A stretch of DNA of 64,000 nt from Streptomyces sp. NBC_00078. Its GTDB lineage: Bacteria; Actinomycetota; Actinomycetes; Streptomycetales; Streptomycetaceae. Location of the stretch: positions 5,332,001 to 5,396,000 of the forward strand of contig NZ_JAPELX010000001.1 of the NCBI RefSeq assembly GCF_026343335.1. Direction: 5' to 3'. The position numbers were made by a program, and so were the translations under genes. Below are positions 5,673 through 21,711 of the stretch, in pieces; positions within the stretch are counted from its first letter, which is position 1, and each line of letters starts with the position of its first letter. The notes beneath the pieces were generated by a model, which was given only the letters and a program-made list of their open reading frames with translations, ran no database searches and was not told where the DNA came from.

Positions 5673-6677
5673 ATGCTCAACAGAAGGAACTTCCTCACCG
5701 CGGCGGTCGGCGTGGCGGCTGCGACGACCGGACTCGCGGCCTGTGCCAAGGGCGACGGCAACAAGTCGGCCTCCGGCGGCGGCAGCGACGCGATCACCCT
5801 CGGCTTCTCCCAGGTCGGCTCGGAGAGCGGCTGGCGCAGCGCCAACACCAACTCGGTGAAGGCGGCCGCGAAGACGGCGGGTTACACCCTCAAGTTCTCC
5901 GACGCCCAGCAGAAGCAGGAGAACCAGATCTCCGCGATCCGCAGCTACATCGCCCAGAAGGTCGACGTCATCGCCTTCTCGCCGGTGGTCGTCACGGGCT
6001 GGGACGCGGTGCTCAAGGAGGCCAAGGCGGCGAAGATCCCGGTGGTCCTCACCGACCGCTCCGTGGAGACCTCCGACCAGTCCCTGTACGTCACCCTGGT
6101 CGGCTCCGACTTCACCGACGAGGGCCGCCGCGCCGGCAAGCTCCTGGAGAAGGTCCTGGCCAAGGCCGGCCACAAGGGCTCGGTGAAGATCGCCCAGCTG
6201 GAGGGCACCACCGGTGCCGCCCCGGCGATCGAGCGCGCCAAGGGCTTCAAGGAGGTCATGGACGCGGACCACGCCGGCGACTGGAAAATCGTCGTCAGCC
6301 AGACCGGTGACTTCACCCGCGCCGGCGGCAAGCAGGTCATGGCCGCCTTCCTCCAGTCCAACCCGGACATCGACGTCCTCTTCGCGCACAACGACGACAT
6401 GGCCATCGGCGCCATCCAGTCCATCGAGGCGGCGGGCAAGAAGCCCGGCAAGGACATCCTCATCGTCTCCTGCGACGGCGTCCACGACGGCTTCGTGGCC
6501 ATGTCCGAGGGCAAGATCAACGCCATCGTCGAGTGCAACCCGATGCTCGGCCCCCAGCTGATGGAGGCCGTGAAGAAGGTCCACGAAGGCCAGAAGGTCG
6601 AGCGCTGGATCAAGACCAAGGAGGGCGACTTCATGCAGGACCAGGCCAAGGCCGCGCTCCCCACTCGCAAGTACTGA
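5673..6677 (+). CDS. sugar ABC transporter substrate-binding lipoprotein (YtfQ-like)
   Basis: A 334-residue periplasmic-binding-protein-family lipoprotein, exported and anchored outside the membrane. Seen: a twin-arginine start (LNRRNFLTAA), hydrophobic stretch and lipobox LAAC with Cys near residue 24, then a type I sugar-binding fold with GFSQVGSESGWR, VDVIAFSPVV, TDRSVE and NDDMAIGAIQ. The GFSQ-GSES-WR opening and overall pattern are those of YtfQ-type galactofuranose/arabinose binders. It heads a four-gene transporter beside araBAD, so L-arabinose or an arabinose-containing sugar is the likely ligand; that is inference. Confidence 0.9.
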   Translation: MLNRRNFLTAAVGVAAATTGLAACAKGDGNKSASGGGSDAITLGFSQVGSESGWRSANTNSVKAAAKTAGYTLKFSDAQQKQENQISAIRSYIAQKVDVIAFSPVVVTGWDAVLKEAKAAKIPVVLTDRSVETSDQSLYVTLVGSDFTDEGRRAGKLLEKVLAKAGHKGSVKIAQLEGTTGAAPAIERAKGFKEVMDADHAGDWKIVVSQTGDFTRAGGKQVMAAFLQSNPDIDVLFAHNDDMAIGAIQSIEAAGKKPGKDILIVSCDGVHDGFVAMSEGKINAIVECNPMLGPQLMEAVKKVHEGQKVERWIKTKEGDFMQDQAKAALPTRKY

Positions 6678-13871: not shown

Positions 13872-15128
13872 TCACGTCGTGCACAGTGCGTCGATCTCGG
13901 CGCCCAGTTCGACCACACGGGCGTCGCGGGCGAGGGGGCCGAGGTCGGTTCGTAGCCCCTGGAGTTTACGGGCGACGTAGCCGGAGGACGTCGTCCGGGC
14001 GAGCTGCAGGGCCTCGCGGCCGTAGGTGAGGACCTGGTCCGGGTCGCGGCGCTTGGCACCGATGGACGCGAGGTCGGTCAGGACTGCGCCGCGTCGCCGG
14101 AAGGACTGGCCGGAGGCGAGCAGGTCCTGGCTCAGGGCGGTCGAGAGGGCCTTCTCGGCGAGGTCGAGGCGCCCGAGTTGGAGGTAGCGGGCGCCGCGTT
14201 CCTCGGCGAGGCGGGAGCCGTCGAAGCGCAGCCAGCCGCCGTTGTGGGCCGGGCCGCTCAGGTCTGTCACCTTTTCCGCCTCGTCCAGGGCACGCTCGCA
14301 GGCGGACAGGTTCCCGAGGGCGGCATACGCCTCGGCCTGGACGGAGGCGACCCAGTACCGGGTGGACAGCGAGCTGTCTCCGTGCCGCGCCACCCTCTCA
14401 GCGGCCGAGAGGGTGCCGACCGCCTCTGCGTAGTGGTGCTCGTAGAGGTCGACGTATGCGTGTCGGACCAGGGCGCATGCCCAGAGGTCGTAGGACTGGG
14501 CTTCTTTGCTGGCGGAGGCGGCGAGTGTGTAGGACGCGGCTGCGTCGGTGTAGCGGTTGCCGTCGAAGGACAGTTCTCCGGCGAGCTGGAAGAGGTCGCC
14601 GGCCGCGCTGCACAGGGCCTGGGATTCCGCCGCCGGTTGGCCGTCGAGGGTGTCGTTGAGCGTGGTGAGCTGGTCGCGAACGATCGGGTACACGGAGCCC
14701 TTGGCGCGGGCGAGTTGGTACACCTGCCACAGGTGGCCGTTCATGCGCAGGAAGTCTTCGGACGTCCCGCGCCGGGCTCCGTCGGCGAGGGCGGCGCTCT
14801 CGTCGGCGGGCAGCGCCACCAGGGCGCTGGTGACGGCTATGGCGCGCAGAAACTGGCGTCGGATCATGTCGTCGAGGTCCCCTGAGCCGTGGTGGTCGCG
14901 AGGCGGCGACCCTGCCGACTCCGGGCTGGCTGCTTGTGGCTGTCCCACCAGGGCGTCGAGTTCGTCAAGGTCAAGGTGCAGCAGCTCGGCCAGCCGTGGT
15001 CGTAATGGCGGCTGGGGGGTGGTGGTCCGAGTTTCCCAACGCCCGATCGTGCGCCGGTCGACGCCGAGGGCGTGCGCGAGCTCTTCCTGACTGTAGCCCA
15101 GCGCCCTGCGCCGCTCTGCAAGCCCCAT
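13872..15128 (-). CDS. XRE-family regulator with TPR-like C-terminal domain
   Basis: A 418-residue DNA-binding protein. Residues 1-60 are a helix-turn-helix (RRRALGYSQEELAHALGVDRRTIGRWE), followed by a linker and about 300 helical residues with repeated A/Y/L patterns (SYTLAASASKEAQSYD, VQAEAYAALGNLSACERAL, RYLQLGRLDLAEKAL) typical of TPR sensor domains in Streptomyces regulators. It is divergent from the 15295 gene, with phased TGTCCCA repeats in between, so it is the likely local regulator of the peptide-like locus. The TPR part may bind a small peptide or partner protein; that is inference. Confidence 0.88.
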   Translation of the reverse strand: MGLAERRRALGYSQEELAHALGVDRRTIGRWETRTTTPQPPLRPRLAELLHLDLDELDALVGQPQAASPESAGSPPRDHHGSGDLDDMIRRQFLRAIAVTSALVALPADESAALADGARRGTSEDFLRMNGHLWQVYQLARAKGSVYPIVRDQLTTLNDTLDGQPAAESQALCSAAGDLFQLAGELSFDGNRYTDAAASYTLAASASKEAQSYDLWACALVRHAYVDLYEHHYAEAVGTLSAAERVARHGDSSLSTRYWVASVQAEAYAALGNLSACERALDEAEKVTDLSGPAHNGGWLRFDGSRLAEERGARYLQLGRLDLAEKALSTALSQDLLASGQSFRRRGAVLTDLASIGAKRRDPDQVLTYGREALQLARTTSSGYVARKLQGLRTDLGPLARDARVVELGAEIDALCTT

Positions 15129-15916: not shown

Positions 15917-16015
15917 ATGGCCCCTTACGGCTGGCGGCAGTGGCTGCTGTCCGCCCTGATCATCGGCTCTGCCTCACCGGTCGCCTGGGCCTTCTGGTAC
16001 TACGACCGCTCCTAG
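15917..16015 (+). CDS. single-helix membrane micropeptide 2
   Basis: ATG 15917 to TAG 16015: 32 residues, a cationic aromatic start (YGWRQW), one hydrophobic helix (LLSALIIGSASPVAWAF) and a WYYDRS tail. Begins 21 bases after micropeptide 1. Unknown function; listed because two consecutive short frames with membrane helices are unlikely by chance. Confidence 0.5.
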   Translation: MAPYGWRQWLLSALIIGSASPVAWAFWYYDRS

Positions 16016-16037
16016 CCGTCGACGGGCAATCACCGAC

Positions 16038-16122
16038 TCCCGCTCCGGCCGCGCGAGCCCTCAGGAAGACCCGGTTTCCCCGCCGGGGCGGGCTCAGCAA
16101 CTCCCCAGCGGCCGGAGCGGGA
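16038..16122 (+). repeat. long-range 15-bp inverted repeat
   Basis: TCCCGCTCCGGCCGC (16038-16052) and its exact complement (16108-16122) enclose 55 bases containing a smaller CCCCGCCGGGG fold. It follows the micropeptides and precedes the candidate precursor, so it may terminate the first transcript or be a structured leader of the precursor mRNA. Confidence 0.45.
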
Positions 16123-16278
16123 TCTCGCCACGGACAAACCCGGCGCCCTGCCGCCGTGGTGACCGCAGTACCCCGATAAGCCCCCGTCCCGGTCGCCGGA
16201 TCTGCCCGCGGCCGGGGCGGGTCCAGGGCTCCGCAGTTCGCGGGGCTCGTCCACTCACTCCGTAGGAGAGGAACGGCC

Positions 16279-16395
16279 ATGAACATCGACGAACTGTTCA
16301 CCGGTGACCTGGTCACCGGCGTCCCCAGCATGGACGCGGCGCTGCTCGACAAGATGCCGGGCGGCGGCGACAACAACGGCGACCACTGCAGCTGA
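16279..16395 (+). CDS. candidate RiPP precursor peptide (38 residues)
   Basis: ATG 16279, preceded by TAGGAGAGGAA, encodes MNIDELFTGDLVTGVPSMDA followed by ALLDKMPGGGDNNGDHCS. The first 25 residues are acidic and amphipathic, like a leader. The last 11-12 are a Gly/Asp/Asn-rich core (GGGDNNGDHCS) with one Cys. It sits directly before an ATP-dependent amide-forming enzyme and a methyltransferase, with a strong hairpin in between, which is how many RiPP precursors are arranged. No known precursor family is recognised. Core boundary and modification are inference; it may instead be a small regulatory peptide. Confidence 0.6.
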   Translation: MNIDELFTGDLVTGVPSMDAALLDKMPGGGDNNGDHCS

Positions 16396-16408
16396 TCAAC
16401 CTATGAGC

Positions 16409-16443
16409 GCGGTGGAGCAGGGCCACGCGCCCTGCTCCACCGC
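16409..16443 (+). terminator. perfect 15-bp hairpin between precursor and modifying genes
   Basis: Stem GCGGTGGAGCAGGGC (16409-16423), loop CACGC, and exact complement 16429-16443, starting 13 bases after the precursor stop. It probably attenuates transcription or stabilises the precursor mRNA, so peptide is made in excess over enzymes. There is no U-tract. Confidence 0.7.
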
Positions 16444-16465
16444 CTCGTGAGTGAAGGAGAAGCGG

Positions 16466-17938
16466 GTGCTTTCGTTTCGTTTGCGACTGGCCGACACCCG
16501 GAGCACGAACTGGCGCTGGGACACAGACCGTTGGGTAAACGGGCAGAGCTGGATCAGGCCGGCTCATGTAGCCGTCCTGGACGCAGAACTCGTGCCGGGT
16601 GACGGAACCGGCGTCTGTGCGCTGGTGAGAGAGGACAAGGGCGGGGAGGTGGACTTCACGTCAGTCCTTCTCCGCCCCGACGAGGTGCAGGTGTCGGCGG
16701 GCGTGTTCGGCACCGCGCCGCTGTACCTCGTAGCAGTCGGAGAAGACCTGTACGGCTCCTGGGACTTGGTGGACCTGCGGATCCACCTGCGACCTGACCG
16801 ACTCAATCCCCGGGTCGTGGCACGCACCCTGAGCAGACAACACCGCTACAGCGCGGACACCCTCTTCGAAGGGGTGTACCGGCTCACGGAACGCGCTACG
16901 GCCGTCTTCACGACCGCCGGACTCACGATCCTCTACCCCGAGCCCGCCCAGCACGTGCTGAAACCTCGAAAGCTGCGCGCGGATGTTGACCCCGTAGACG
17001 CTTTCGATGCGCTACTGAACGGGGTCATGGCCGAGTGGCCTTCCACGGCAAACTGCGTCGGCGTGGAACTCTCCGGCGGGGCCGACTCGGGCAACGTGTC
17101 TCTCTCAGCCGCCGCAGCAGGCTTCGGCTCCATCCACACATTTGGGCTGCTCATGGGCGGCCGGATCGGCTGGCTCCAACAAGCCAGACGCCGCATGCTG
17201 GCGGATCACCTGGGCCTGCGGGACACCTTTGTCCCAGCCATTCAGTACCCGCCCTTCGTGCCTGGTGGGGTACGGGAACGCGGAGCGCCGCACGATCCGG
17301 CAGGAGCCTTCTACCAGGAGGCTTTCGACGTCCTGCGCGGACACGTAGCCGCTCGTGGCTGCGAGGTGATCTTCACGGGCGGTGGTGGGGACGAGGTCAA
17401 TGCCTGCCACTCGCGTACGAACGCCGAACTTCCCGCAGCCGATCCCGTCCCGTGGCTCGGCGACAAGACCATCGAGGCCCTGGCCCAGGTGGACGAGAAC
17501 CTCGCCCCCATCCCCGTGCTCCCTGTACCCACGCTCGTGGCCTTCGGCCTGCACAACCCCGCCTACCTGCGACTCGGGATCTGGCCGATCGCTCCACTCG
17601 TCCACCCCCGAGTCGTCCGCTTCATGGAACAGCTGCCACACGAGCACAAACGGGGCAAGGCGATGTTCCGCAACCGCCTGCGGCGCGCGGGACTGCCCGA
17701 GTCCGTCGCGGCCCCCAGCGAACCGGAGAACTTCCTCGCGGTCATGGAGAGGGGCCTGCGAAGTTACGGTCTTCCGCTTCTGGACGACGTGCTTCGCGAG
17801 TCACTGCTGGTCGATCTCGGCTACGTTGATCCGGTCGCCCTGGCCCGGGCCCGGGATCACGCCGAGAAAGCCCCCGTGGTGCCTGACCTGCTGTGCGACA
17901 CACTCGCCCTGGAAGTCGGACTCCGGAGCCTTGCATGA
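16466..17938 (+). CDS. asparagine-synthetase-like amide-forming enzyme
   Basis: A 490-residue member of the asparagine synthetase B superfamily. The PP-loop pyrophosphatase signature ELSGGADSG is at residues 201-209, with FTGGGGDEVN further on and KRGKAMFRNRLRRAGLP near the C-terminus, all as in AsnB-like synthetases and lasso-peptide cyclases. The N-terminal part keeps a nucleophile-hydrolase-like fold pattern but has no Cys at position 2, so it should not use glutamine. GTG 16466 is chosen because AAGGAG ends six bases before it; an upstream in-frame GTG at 16451 lacks a site. It likely adenylates a carboxylate and forms an intramolecular or small-molecule amide. Stop overlaps the methyltransferase start. 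Confidence 0.8.
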   Translation: MLSFRLRLADTRSTNWRWDTDRWVNGQSWIRPAHVAVLDAELVPGDGTGVCALVREDKGGEVDFTSVLLRPDEVQVSAGVFGTAPLYLVAVGEDLYGSWDLVDLRIHLRPDRLNPRVVARTLSRQHRYSADTLFEGVYRLTERATAVFTTAGLTILYPEPAQHVLKPRKLRADVDPVDAFDALLNGVMAEWPSTANCVGVELSGGADSGNVSLSAAAAGFGSIHTFGLLMGGRIGWLQQARRRMLADHLGLRDTFVPAIQYPPFVPGGVRERGAPHDPAGAFYQEAFDVLRGHVAARGCEVIFTGGGGDEVNACHSRTNAELPAADPVPWLGDKTIEALAQVDENLAPIPVLPVPTLVAFGLHNPAYLRLGIWPIAPLVHPRVVRFMEQLPHEHKRGKAMFRNRLRRAGLPESVAAPSEPENFLAVMERGLRSYGLPLLDDVLRESLLVDLGYVDPVALARARDHAEKAPVVPDLLCDTLALEVGLRSLA

Positions 17939-18684
17939 GCAGCCTGGACATCGTGGAGGCGGAACGCCTCGAAGCGTCCAACCTCTTCTACCGGGATCCT
18001 GCGCTGTACGACAGCGCGCAGGCCGACAGTGACAGCGCCAGTGTCTGCCTGGAGCTCATCGACCGGCACTGCCCGGCAGCCCGCACTTTGCTGGACTTCG
18101 GCTGCGGTACCGGCAGGGATCTGGAGCTGCTGGCCCAGCGCTTCGACTGCACCGGCATTGATCTACAGCCCGGCCTGGTCGACTACGCGCGCCGCACGCG
18201 CCCCGGACTCGACTGCCGGGTCGGGGACATGCGTACTGTCCGACTCGGTCACACTGCTGACGTCCTGGTGTGCCTGGGGAACTCGCTCGCCTACGTGCAC
18301 GACAACGCGGACATCCAGGCAGCATTCCAGACATTCGCCGCGCACGCGCATCCGAACACCCTGCTCGTGTTGTGCTCCCCAATAGCCCCGATAGAGTCCC
18401 CGAGTCCTCAACAGGCTGGTGTCGAGACCCGCCTCGGGTCTGCCACCGTGGCCATCAGCTACGAGTGGGATCTGCGGACGCAGATCAACACCATGCGCCG
18501 GCACTGGGTGTTCGATTCGGGCGAGGAGTACCACGACTCCATCCGGCGACGTGTTCTCGGCCCTCGCGAACTGGAGCTGTACGCGCTCTCCGCCGGATTC
18601 AAGGTCCTGGAGATCGTGAACGAAGCAGGTGCACTGCCTGTCTCTGGCCCAAGCGCCTACACCGTAGCTCGCTATCAAGGGTGA
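17935..18684 (+). CDS. class I SAM-dependent methyltransferase
   Basis: A 249-residue methyltransferase with motif I LLDFGCGTGRD (residues 52-62), acidic post-motif GIDLQPGLVDYA, and VLVCLGNSLAYV as the motif IV region. The ATG overlaps the TGA of the synthetase-like gene (ATGA), so the two are coupled. The fold resembles small-molecule or peptide methyltransferases with a C-terminal beta-rich cap (YEWDLRTQINTMRRHWVF). In this context the likely substrate is the product of the neighbouring synthetase, perhaps a carboxyl or amine of the peptide; that is inference. Confidence 0.88.
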   Translation: MSSLDIVEAERLEASNLFYRDPALYDSAQADSDSASVCLELIDRHCPAARTLLDFGCGTGRDLELLAQRFDCTGIDLQPGLVDYARRTRPGLDCRVGDMRTVRLGHTADVLVCLGNSLAYVHDNADIQAAFQTFAAHAHPNTLLVLCSPIAPIESPSPQQAGVETRLGSATVAISYEWDLRTQINTMRRHWVFDSGEEYHDSIRRRVLGPRELELYALSAGFKVLEIVNEAGALPVSGPSAYTVARYQG

Positions 18685-18925: not shown

Positions 18926-19615
18926 ATGAGTCAGGGAGTGCCAGTGCCCAAGCACGAGCGGCGCCAGATCACCGACGAGCAGTTCCACGACGCGACGCTG
19001 ATCTGGGACTACCACCGGATGCGCCATGAGCAGCGGCCCTGCTCGGCGGCGATCGGCCTGGGCAGCCACGACCTCGGCGTCGCCACCACGGCCGTCAACC
19101 TCTACCGCGCTGGCCTTTTCCCGGTCGTGGTCTTCAGCGGCGGCAACAGCCCCACCACCCGCACCCGCTTCCCGCGCGGCGAGGCGGTCCACTACCGCGA
19201 GCATGCGCTGAGTCTGGGTGTGCCGAACGAGGCCATCCGGGTCGAGCCGAAGGCAGCCAACACCGGCCAGAACATCACCTTCTCCCGCGAGCTGCTGGCC
19301 GAGGCCGGCATCGCGGTCGAGTCGCTGCTGCTGATCTCCAAGCCGTACATGGAGCGCCGCTCGTATGCGACGTGCCGCAAGTTGTGGCCGGAGGTTGAGG
19401 TCGTGTGCGCCTCCGAGCCGCTGGAGTTGGACGACTACATCAAGTCGATCGGCGACGAGAAGCTCGTCGTCGACATGCTCGTCGGCGACCTGCAACGGGT
19501 GATCGAGTACCCGAAGCTCGGCTTCGCCGTCGAGCAGGACGTACCGGGCGATGTGAGTAGCGCTTACGAGCGCCTCCTGGACGCCGGCTTCGACAGTCGC
19601 GTCGTCAGTACCTGA
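18926..19615 (+). CDS. YdcF/SanA/ElyC-type DUF218 protein
   Basis: A 229-residue DUF218 protein. Seen: AIGLGSHDLGVATTAVNLYRAG, VVFSGGNSP, EAVHYREHALSLGVP and NTGQNITFSRELL, the usual YdcF series with a DUF218 metal/nucleotide-type pocket. No membrane helix, so unlike SanA/ElyC it should be cytosolic. Start ATG 18926 with a weak upstream site; a GTG three codons in is possible. YdcF-like proteins recur beside peptide and nucleoside clusters in actinomycetes, but their reaction is not established. It is the last plus-strand gene of the locus. Confidence 0.8.
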   Translation: MSQGVPVPKHERRQITDEQFHDATLIWDYHRMRHEQRPCSAAIGLGSHDLGVATTAVNLYRAGLFPVVVFSGGNSPTTRTRFPRGEAVHYREHALSLGVPNEAIRVEPKAANTGQNITFSRELLAEAGIAVESLLLISKPYMERRSYATCRKLWPEVEVVCASEPLELDDYIKSIGDEKLVVDMLVGDLQRVIEYPKLGFAVEQDVPGDVSSAYERLLDAGFDSRVVST

Positions 19616-19647
19616 TCCGCTGAGCATCGGGCCGAAGTGGCAGGTGT

Positions 19648-20043
19648 TCAGGAGCCGGGAAGCAGCGCGAGCACGGTGGACTGGACGAGCTGGGCAGCGG
19701 TGAGGAGGTTGGGGATGCCCCCGCAGCGTTCGACGAGGTTCTGGAGCATGTAGCGCAGGGTGCCGGGATCGCGTTCGGGTTCGTCCAGGCGCGGGGTGAT
19801 CACGTCGAGATCGCGCAGGGCGGCGTCCACTTCGGGGTACTGGCCGCGCAGTTCTTCCAGGCGGCGTCGGAGTCCCTCGATGCTTTCGCGGGCTTCGGTG
19901 ACGGCTTCGTTGGTGATGTTGTTGGTCTGGCTGACGTTCTGGGAGAACGCTGCAGCTTGGGCGGGCCCGGTCATGTGACCGGTGTTGATGATCCCGAAGT
20001 TGGGACCGTTCGGGGCCGGGTCGGGCTGGCGGCGGATGGGCAT
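19648..20043 (-). CDS. helical protein with N-terminal amyloid-like motif
   Basis: A 131-residue protein. Residues 15-41 contain NFGIINTGHMTGPAQAAAFS, a Gly/Asn/Gln-rich segment that matches the last 27 residues of the gene just upstream (17 of 27 identical). The rest is helical (EARESIEGLRRRLEELRGQY; NLVERCGGIPNLLTAAQLVQ) and ends in a short hydrophobic tail. Motifs of this G-x-M-x-GP-x-QA type resemble bacterial amyloid-signalling (BASS/RHIM-like) motifs that pair receptors and effectors encoded side by side. Begins 25 bases after the upstream stop. Function is inference. Confidence 0.6.
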   Translation of the reverse strand: MPIRRQPDPAPNGPNFGIINTGHMTGPAQAAAFSQNVSQTNNITNEAVTEARESIEGLRRRLEELRGQYPEVDAALRDLDVITPRLDEPERDPGTLRYMLQNLVERCGGIPNLLTAAQLVQSTVLALLPGS

Positions 20044-20068
20044 GCGGGGCTCCAGGGGGTCTTGCCGG

Positions 20069-20454
20069 TCAGTTCGTCATGGAGGGGTTGGCGGAGAGCG
20101 GTGCGGCCTGCACGGGGCCGGTCATAGTGCCGCCGTTCATGACGCCGAAGTTGTAGATCGCGGTGGCCTGTTGCTGGTAGGCGGCGATGTCGACGTTGTG
20201 GTTGCGCAGGAAGATCTCGGTGGAGTCAAAGACGCGGCGCTGCATCATCTGCACGTAGTAGCGGGCGTCGTCATTCGTGTGCATGTCTTCGATCCAACGG
20301 ACGCTGTTGACCTCGCGAAGGCTGACCGGCCCGCTGCCGGGATCGAGTTCTGGGCGCTTGCGCGGCTTGCGGCGTATGAGCCGGTCGAGCCCGAGGTAGA
20401 TGTCACCGAGGGCGTTGAAGGCTGTGCGGCTGAGCCACTTGAGGGAAGAGGATG
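20069..20454 (-). pseudogene. 5'-truncated protein with C-terminal amyloid-like motif
   Basis: A frame ending at 20069 whose last 27 residues (NFGVMNGGTMTGPVQAAPLS...) match the motif of the following gene. Upstream it reads WLSRTAFNALGDIYLGLDRL, VNSVRWIEDMHTNDDARYYV and STEIFLRNHNVDIAAYQQQA, a plausible helical effector-like domain. The only in-frame ATG is at MHTNDD. The good sequence runs without a start up to the integrase start at about 20452, where it stops making sense, so the 5' end appears lost at a junction. If translated from the internal ATG it would give about 70 residues. Confidence 0.5.
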
Positions 20455-21711
20455 GTCCCGACTGCCGACCACGGCATCGGTAAGCGTTGGCAGGTCCGTT
20501 ACCGCGACCTGGACGACCGCCAGCGCAAGGAGAACTTCCACACGAAGGCCGAGGCGGACAATCGCGCCGCCGAGGTCGACGTCGAGATCCGGCAGGGCTC
20601 CTACGTCGTCCCCGCCGAGACGAAGCAGACGCTCGTCGCCTACGCACAGAAGTGGCTCGACGCGAACTCCGTCGGCCCGACGACTGCGCTCCGCTATGAG
20701 GCGACGGTCCGCAACCACATCACCGAGCATCTCGGCCGACGCGAGATGCGATCCCTCAACCAGCCCTCGATCATCCAGGGTTGGATCCGGACGCTCCAGG
20801 ACAGCGGCCTCGAAGTGTCGACGATCGAGGGCATCTTCGACATCCTCTCCAGCATCCTCGGCGCGGCCGTGGAGGACGGGCTGCTGCCGAAGAACCCCTG
20901 CAAGGCGAAGTCGGTCAAGCTGCCGACGGCGACCAAGAAGAAGGTCATCCCTTGGTCGTTGGAGCGCGTACGCGCCGTCATCGCCGGGCTGCCGAAGCGC
21001 TTCCAGACAGGCGGCAAGCTCGCCTTCGGCTGCGGCCTGCGCCAGGGCGAGGTGTTCGGCTTCGCCGTCGAGGACATCGACTTCAAGGGCGGCTGGATCC
21101 ACGTCAACCGCCAGGTACGGCTTGTCGGTACGAAGCCCGTCTTCGCCCTGCCCAAAGGCAACAAGATCCGGTCAGTGCCCCTGCCGGCCCAACTTGCCGC
21201 CGCTTTCAAGGCCCACATGAAGGCGTTCCCGCCCGTCGCCGTCACCCTGCCCTGGGCCAAGCCGGACGGTGAACTGAAGACCTTCTGCCTCCTCTTCGTC
21301 GACGAGAAGAGCCGGGCCTACAACCGCAGCGTCTTCAACATGGGCGACTGGAAGCGCGCCCTGGCCGCCGCTGGCGTGATTCCTCCCCGCGAGCGCGGAG
21401 CGCGCTACCTCCAGGCGGCTCCGGAAGACGGCATGCACGCCCTCCGGCACGCGTACGCCTCCGTGCTCCTGGACGCGGGGGAGAGCATCAAGGCGCTCTC
21501 CGAGTACCTCGGCCACTCGGATCCTGGTTTCACGCTGCGGACGTACACGCACCTGCTGCCATCCAGCGAGACCCGCACCCGCAAGGCGATCGACGACGCC
21601 TTTACGGAAACGGAAGCCGAGGCGGAAGACGACGCCGACCCGCCCGCTACCCAGGGCACATCAGTGCCCCCAGCGAAATCAATGTGCCCTCAATGTGCCC
21701 TGGCCGCCTGA
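20452..21711 (+). CDS. tyrosine recombinase (integrase) of the integrated element
   Basis: A 419-residue phage/ICE-type integrase. Seen: N-terminal arm/SAM-like regions (YAQKWLDANSVGPTTALRYE, TVRNHITEHLGRREM), then the catalytic domain with GCGLRQGEVFGFA (first Arg), HALRHAYASVLLDAG (HxxR), LGHSDPGFTLRTYTH with the His/Trp-position His and nucleophile Tyr. The start MVPTADHGIGKRWQVRYRD is a few residues shorter than usual and lies at the junction with the truncated gene upstream. Its 3' end contains the arm-type repeats, and it is 70 bases from attR, as expected for a site-specific element integrase. Confidence 0.92.
   Translation: MVPTADHGIGKRWQVRYRDLDDRQRKENFHTKAEADNRAAEVDVEIRQGSYVVPAETKQTLVAYAQKWLDANSVGPTTALRYEATVRNHITEHLGRREMRSLNQPSIIQGWIRTLQDSGLEVSTIEGIFDILSSILGAAVEDGLLPKNPCKAKSVKLPTATKKKVIPWSLERVRAVIAGLPKRFQTGGKLAFGCGLRQGEVFGFAVEDIDFKGGWIHVNRQVRLVGTKPVFALPKGNKIRSVPLPAQLAAAFKAHMKAFPPVAVTLPWAKPDGELKTFCLLFVDEKSRAYNRSVFNMGDWKRALAAAGVIPPRERGARYLQAAPEDGMHALRHAYASVLLDAGESIKALSEYLGHSDPGFTLRTYTHLLPSSETRTRKAIDDAFTETEAEAEDDADPPATQGTSVPPAKSMCPQCALAA
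21653..21701 (+). repeat. arm-type integrase repeats, right
   Basis: ATGTGCCCT at 21682-21690 and 21693-21701 (11-base period) plus one inverted copy AGGGCACAT at 21653-21661, all within the 3' end of the integrase gene. The direct pair has the same sequence and spacing as 11278-11297 near attL. Confidence 0.55.

Follow-up and report, generated by a model that had tools for sequence, protein, structure and literature searches.

A conserved short peptide gene beside an asparagine synthetase-like enzyme gene in Streptomyces, and the Lys-Asp macrolactam proposed for it

The locus analyzed here, in Streptomyces sp. NBC_00078, raises the question of what is encoded by a very short open reading frame (ORF) that stands, across a hairpin, before the gene of an asparagine synthetase (AS)-like enzyme, and of what that enzyme may do to its product. 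The window, i.e. the whole stretch of DNA that was analyzed, is 64 kb long. The short frame and the residues on which the argument turns are:

16264..16271, + strand: ribosome-binding site of the precursor gene, aggagagg, read directly
16279..16395, + strand: precursor peptide gene, 38 aa, a conserved ORF in single copy in the genome and under purifying selection
16351..16353, + strand: codon of Lys25, proposed amine partner of a cross-link; among relatives a K lies six residues N-terminal of a D
16369..16371, + strand: codon of Asp31, proposed to supply the carboxylate that the enzyme adenylates; K-x5-D in relatives

The original prediction claimed a 38-residue frame with a good ribosome site at this position, and this is confirmed, in that the ATG at 16279 has the site listed above just 5′ of it and the stop falls at 16393-16395; the peptide reads MNIDELFTGDLVTGVPSMDAALLDKMPGGGDNNGDHCS, and its gene has one match only in its own 9.33-Mb genome. 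One scan of genome contigs with the AS-like enzyme as query gave 51 Streptomyces loci, and the precursor frame was open in 40 of them, i.e. 39 intact frames and that of L032 (S. regalis), counted as open despite its different N-terminus; it was missing in ten, two at contig ends and eight with a truncated or frameshifted enzyme gene. An interrupted frame with the enzymes kept had been named as the case that would refute a precursor, and it was seen once, in L057, where the precursor is frameshifted and both enzyme and methyltransferase are intact (L019 looks like the same locus); this sole instance is set beside 37 of 38 loci that keep the frame open when only those with a full-length enzyme and the upstream DNA present are counted. 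The reverse, a broken enzyme gene with the precursor kept, was found in L074, L076, and L079.

Within the near clades 41 ORFs were found, of which L054 and L074 were excluded from selection and identity counts for their unusual length. Across the remaining 39, pN/pS was 0.15 and 0.21 inside the two clades and 0.32 between them, with pN of 0 for codons 28-37 in the between-clade comparison, and residues 24-37, DKMPGGGDNNGDHC, were identical in 39 of 39. The excluded precursors differ from this only in part: L054 has a longer leader and an unchanged core, and L074, whose enzyme gene is broken, has a core one Asn shorter (GGGDNGDHCS). Purifying selection on the ORF thus holds, as judged from patterns of substitution, and the reading of the ORF as a precursor is strongly supported so far as sequence comparison can support it. 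The general RiPP criterion is fulfilled too, i.e. a conserved short ORF whose core hardly varies and whose leader varies more, next to an enzyme that likely modifies peptides. Two oddities of the leader were observed in passing. That of L054 carries a threefold GDLIT repeat in a precursor of about 50 aa in all, and in L032 (about 5829-5838) homology to the precursor starts at codon 4, resembling a recombination break in the first codons; L032 gave no match to the upstream regulator.

Between the precursor gene and the enzyme gene lies a second conserved feature:

16409..16443, + strand: perfect 15-bp hairpin, a proposed attenuator or mRNA-end stabilizer, supported by folding and covariation

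This hairpin had been predicted as well, and its place and pairing were borne out by inspection of the arms (16409-16423 and 16429-16443, complementary at 15 of 15 positions around a 5-nt loop, with the first base 13 nt past the precursor stop and the whole before the enzyme gene) and by folding. The stretch 16390-16480 folded at −52.1 kcal/mol, compared with −32.6 ± 3.5 for shuffled versions (z −5.6, none of 200 as stable), and the intergenic stretch folded alone gave z −6.6. Most relatives have a hairpin at the same place with a different sequence and compensated pairs. Covariation was assessed on 36 intergenic sequences, 33 of them distinct, with 12 shared pairs, which were formed in 97.2% of cells, falling to 49–66% when the partner was slid; four pairs were changed on both sides, and there were 26 double-changed cells against 7.5 in shuffles (0 of 500). 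Two of the five covariation measures did not exceed shuffles, namely double-change pairs (reached in 111 of 500) and pair types (439 of 500). The hairpin does show compensatory changes. Folding of 37 loci from the wider family predicted a helix of 11 bp or more 3′ of the precursor, with small bulges permitted, in 34 of them (that of L129 overlapping the enzyme frame) and no such helix in L126, L127, and L138, where the hairpin is weak or absent. The perfect-stem test was significant in 13 of the 37 loci; folding energy was added because this test misses bulged stems and larger loops, and by that measure only 21 of 37 loci had two or fewer of 200 shuffles as stable. Given these results, and given that the hairpin of a Xanthomonas locus (L137) is followed by TTTT and resembles an intrinsic terminator, attenuation is plausible but unmeasured. 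That the hairpin causes an excess of precursor over enzyme remains an inference, without RNA evidence and with no T-run at the window's own hairpin.

Further upstream, at 16038-16052 and 16108-16122, there is a second perfect 15-nt inverted repeat with arms 55 nt apart, itself preceded by a small membrane-peptide-like frame at about 15918-16016. Several loci of L033-L042 and L043-L079 have small one-helix membrane-like peptides some 360–560 nt before the enzyme. Their length is 41 aa in one of the clades and 37 aa in the other, and they resemble each other in position but not in sequence.

The gene that follows the hairpin is:

16466..17938, + strand: AS-like enzyme, proposed Lys-Asp macrolactam synthetase (PF00733; SGGADS, GGDE, and a conserved Lys; no Cys2)

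Its frame has a first GTG at 16451 and an alternative GTG at 16466, the latter being the likelier start because relatives begin M-L-S. The only Pfam match is PF00733, at 35.7 bits for a cut-off of 21, and together with the SGGxDS motif and an AS fold, the fold being taken from a low-confidence model, this meets the criteria of the asparagine synthetase superfamily. In 11 of 11 diverse members (family profile A1), SGG.DS, GGDE, and K403 were invariant, and in all 11, with start codons as chosen by us, Cys was absent at residue 2, which is the residue for glutamine hydrolysis in class-II amidotransferases. Lasso-cyclase models scored the window enzyme at 22.9 of 525 bits (NF033535) and 19.8 of 300 (NF033561), and six of six further members fell under both cut-offs, the best at 39.5 of 300. 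Among sequences of solved structures, beta-lactam synthetase alone was matched by the profile at E≤0.001, with E 5e-5. A first structure model (pLDDT 57) was too poor, and a second (mean pLDDT 65, low confidence) served only to confirm the fold. It matched asparagine synthetases with Z 17.1–17.9 and rmsd 3.6–3.9 over 252–264 residues, and carbapenam/beta-lactam synthetases with Z 16.2–17.6 and rmsd 9.4–9.8 over 310–340, so that on this model the two are in effect tied; the top Foldseek match was beta-lactam synthetase (E 2.7e-15), with TM-scores of just 0.33–0.42 among these families. Lasso cyclases were not among the structural matches listed, which proves nothing.

Enzyme matches at E≤1e-30, distant ones included, occurred in 41 of 392 sampled genus genomes; at the same threshold the profile matched 12 of 394 genomes of the class (7 of 137 genera) and, in the phylum sample, 2 of 396, both already known. 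At E≤1e-5 there were 44 plasmid records, from rhizobia, Streptomyces, Aminobacter, and Xanthomonas, not all of which were examined. Relatives in Streptomyces, other actinomycetes, rhizobia, and on a Xanthomonas plasmid are also preceded by a short ORF, mostly across a hairpin. A phage origin was considered and rejected, as phage records gave no enzyme match and IMG/VR gave matches in two contigs only.

What these short ORFs share became apparent from the spacing of two residues. Neither this Lys/Asp pair nor the class of the enzyme had been part of the original prediction. For 33 distant loci (27 and a further six from plasmids), candidate ORFs were chosen on position, length, and ribosome site alone, with no rule on K or D, and a set of ORFs picked by the K-x5-D rule was excluded as evidence for it; the position rule was loosened for L101 because its ORF overlaps the enzyme start. 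A candidate was available in 31 of the 33, and K-x5-D was present in the nearest ORF in 26 and in the second ORF in two (L109 and L113), i.e. 28 of 31, compared with a background of 2.4% among 1506 short ORFs taken from these loci; other spacings in this background occurred at 1.7–2.7%. The motif was missing from the chosen ORFs of L111, L115, and L122. Two of these, L115 and L122, have enzyme matches without the N-terminal part, and in L111 (from the same genome as L086) the enzyme is complete and the leader disrupted, and DKAAETSD can still be read as the core. In loci examined after the pattern was noticed, among them the gamma-proteobacterial L137 and two IMG/VR loci (L135 and L136), eight of eight nearest ORFs had K-x5-D, comprising five new sequences (KIAGSSD, KPSGQGD, KPYLGDD, KVRLPGD, and KAPFPND) and three near copies; the distance limit was slightly wider here, as were, for some, the limits on ribosome site and length. 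Compared by eye, the heptamers hold only K and D constant. L135 and L106, a distant pair of loci, read YKKIAGSSD and TKKQGSSD here. Spacing six occurred in all 29 of a set of precursors assembled with the pattern known, the next best, twelve, in 21. In a free alignment of these 29 the K/D pairs did not fall in common columns, and 80% was reached by a single column, one of F. What is constant, as read from this alignment, is the K-to-D spacing and not the column. Chance occurrence is likelier in rhizobial peptides because they contain several K and D.

Our account of the locus proceeds from what was observed, namely conservation, selection, covariation, the enzyme family, and the Lys/Asp spacing, and we regard it as probable, short of confident. 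It proposes a RiPP system with an AS-like enzyme, a Lys25-Asp31 macrolactam, enzyme production limited by the hairpin, tailoring by a methyltransferase, and regulation of the NsdA family. The enzyme would recognize the leader half of the precursor, adenylate the side chain of Asp31 with ATP, and then form an amide. The amine is most likely supplied by the peptide, because the enzyme lacks the cysteine for drawing ammonia from glutamine, and its most likely donor would be Lys25, six residues before Asp31; adenylation of Asp and attack by Lys best explain an AS fold without the glutaminase cysteine together with a Lys and an Asp at fixed distance. The ring would span seven residues, as the macrolactam K-M-P-G-G-G-D followed by the tail NNGDHCS, and would close without prior removal of the leader and without a lasso-type leader peptidase, which fits the absence of lasso B1 and B2 matches nearby (window's genome only). 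Leader recognition, the bond, and the order of steps are inferred without a mass spectrum, and K-x5-D could instead mark a protease site at K and a modified Asp. The methyltransferase would then tailor the ring product, a place that may be taken by an acetyltransferase or ABC exporter gene in other branches, and the hairpin would lower read-through or protect the precursor mRNA, giving more precursor than enzyme; this RNA behaviour is inferred in the absence of RNA data.

Three other explanations were weighed. An unlinked protease might cut the leader and expose a new N-terminus that, rather than Lys, joins an Asp in a head-to-side-chain macrolactam, either as a lasso-like 8-residue ring from Gly28 to Asp35 or, with the cut after Lys25, as a 6-residue ring from Met26 to Asp31. 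Lasso cyclases do share the enzyme superfamily, lasso rings include a 1-to-8 spacing, and the window's Gly28-Asp35 has that spacing; Lys as the cleavage site would also account for its constancy. Nonetheless we consider this reading unlikely. In the window's genome there is no adjacent match to a PqqD-like B1 RRE (PF05402; matches at 1.19 and 2.578 Mb, with the locus at 5.348 Mb) or to a transglutaminase-like B2 peptidase (PF13471; matches at 2.578 Mb and, below cut-off, 9.04 Mb), and the tail would be only 3–4 residues. A core residue 1 with Asp/Glu at 7–9 was not met family-wide: the window fits 1 to 8, but the first Gly is not universal, with ESSD/ETSD cores lacking it, nor is a second acid, L101 having none after that Asp, and neither the ESSD/ETSD members nor L101 fit. 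Membership of the lasso peptides as such, a possibility prompted by Gly28-Asp35, was rejected on the missing B1/B2 matches, the low cyclase scores, and the poor fit of the wider family. The window's genome does have a lasso-type cluster elsewhere (L143, contig C1, about 2.578 Mb), with the short ORF MENNTTRDQQDLAESYEPPALVAVGEFSEDTLGFGSDHTDVLGKQGW, adjacent PqqD and Transglut_core3 matches, and a 604-aa cyclase that scores 269 bits against NF033561, just below the cut-off of 300.

It could also be that the enzyme amidates or dehydrates a carboxylate, producing an aspartimide, Asn in place of Asp, or a C-terminus in amide or nitrile form, with Lys serving for recognition only. PMC13060819 describes AS-like RiPP enzymes, TsrC, ScdTA, and PesC, that amidate or nitrilate C-termini, and states that PesC accepts free ammonia as well. 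This seems quite improbable to us here, given the lack of Cys2 in the diverse members under the starts chosen, C-termini that vary in length and residue over the family, and a fixed Lys spacing that it leaves unexplained. Most remote, and very improbable in our view, is that the ORF encodes a small protein or a leader peptide with a regulatory role, with the hairpin acting as an attenuator of the classical kind and the enzyme having some other substrate. Short leader peptides are common in attenuation and the hairpin is directly 3′ of the ORF, yet selection acts on amino acids, the core is nearly invariant, and the Lys/Asp pair is common across phyla; moreover, hairpin sequence differs between clades where the peptide core does not, an argument that does not cover alternative pairings with the ORF.

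The Lys25-Asp31 macrolactam remains our preferred reading, and two neighboring genes enter into it:

17935..18684, + strand: SAM-dependent methyltransferase (PF13649), proposed tailoring enzyme of the clade, with a 4-nt overlap with the enzyme gene
13872..15128, − strand: HTH-TPR regulator, assigned to the NsdA family by profile match (NF053720), divergently oriented and upstream of the cluster

A methyltransferase match adjoins the enzyme in 48 of 51 loci (absent in L078, L080, and L082), and in other branches an ABC transporter (L108) or a GNAT acetyltransferase (L101; in L112 the match is under the Pfam cut-off) was seen. The regulator, proposed to control the locus, scores 164–165 bits against NF053720 for a cut-off of 75, and among relatives all seven TPR-like neighbors tested exceeded this cut-off (13 possible regulators were seen, four others lying outside the test). 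No NsdA-family regulator was found by eye in L107 and L114 or listed in the annotated stretches of rhizobial loci. As the window's genome has 18 NF053720 matches above cut-off, we estimate chance adjacency of such a regulator within a few kb to be a matter of per cent. We know of no peptide ligand for the NsdA family, and sensing of the peptide by this regulator is speculation; regulation and function are inferred throughout. PMC12243394 describes NsdAsr, a protein of the NsdA family, as a negative regulator of rimocidin production.

Other genes near these loci were seen and are not taken as part of the system. Downstream, at 18926-21711, are a DUF218 (YdcF-like) gene and a tyrosine integrase gene; the former (18926-19615) was rejected as part of the cluster, with matches in just 3 of 51 loci (L032, L033, and L035), as was the latter (20452-21711), with an integrase of about 90% identity in L034 and L035 only. 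The nearby presence of that integrase in those two loci hints that an integrative element may adjoin the cluster; no tRNA gene was found in the 64-kb window. A defence system was likewise rejected, PADLOC giving only one model's methyltransferase domain and weak regulator matches. In Mesorhizobium L101 and L138 a phosphotransferase gene (APH-like in L101, which also has a GNAT gene) follows the AS-like gene, possibly for peptide phosphorylation or self-protection. On large Rhizobium plasmids (L100, L102, and L139) the core MIKGGKPGDMDKLDV occurs near acyl-homoserine-lactone synthase genes, with rhiA also nearby in L102 and L139.

Apart from lasso biosynthesis, the RiPP chemistry of AS-like enzymes is little explored, and this family offers a testable substrate rule, Lys six before Asp, with a likely precursor for each enzyme. 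If the account is true, the enzyme would, unlike lasso cyclases, close the ring on a peptide that still carries its leader, and would be easier to put to use, and if an NsdA-family regulator senses the peptide, ligands of such HTH-TPR regulators become approachable. The nearly invariant Streptomyces core suggests a dedicated role, e.g. in signalling or metal binding, and not that of a toxin of variable sequence. A broader proposal, which we put forward only tentatively and think rather doubtful, is that of a new RiPP class: a leader-bearing peptide with an AS-fold Lys-Asp (i, i+6) staple, no RRE partner or leader peptidase, and a distribution over plasmids and chromosomes that reaches from Streptomyces to rhizobia and Xanthomonas. 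Its nearly invariant product would be a modified-peptide signal, the ligand of the NsdA-family TPR regulator in actinomycetes and encoded beside acyl-homoserine-lactone synthase genes in Rhizobium. A literature search from which subscription papers were mostly absent found neither a description of this precursor and enzyme family nor any occurrence of four of its core strings. PMC13060819 counts about 3,800 candidates of the AS family next to RiPP elements, some 3,500 of them lasso-related and some 300 uncharacterized, and gives TsrC and ScdTA as amidating; the present family may be among those 300 or so.

Compared with known systems, the likeness to TsrC, ScdTA, and PesC is an AS-like enzyme acting on a ribosomal peptide, but PesC (PMC13060819) places glutamine-derived ammonia on a C-terminal carboxylate and the present family lacks Cys2. 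Lasso peptides resemble this system in a short precursor of leader and core and in an enzyme of the AS superfamily from which lactam formation by way of an adenylated Asp side chain is expected; they differ in that here no B1/B2 match is nearby in the window's genome, the enzyme is far under the cyclase cut-offs, and Lys-x5-Asp is fixed, and the family profile did not hit the lasso-type cyclase of the same genome at E≤10. Beta-lactam synthetase is the closest solved sequence to the family profile. Beta-lactam and carbapenam synthetases form intramolecular lactams by an AS fold without glutaminase, their substrates being small amino acids and not ribosomal peptides. Graspetides (microviridin-like, with omega-amides of Lys to Asp/Glu) share the proposed Lys-Asp side-chain lactam and a leader-containing peptide, but are made by ATP-grasp ligases, whereas the enzyme here is of PF00733 and no ATP-grasp was found among the window's neighbors or the relatives' neighbors scanned. 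RRNPP-type peptide signalling offers a last comparison, with an HTH-TPR regulator adjoining a small peptide gene in both, the regulator here being of the NsdA family.
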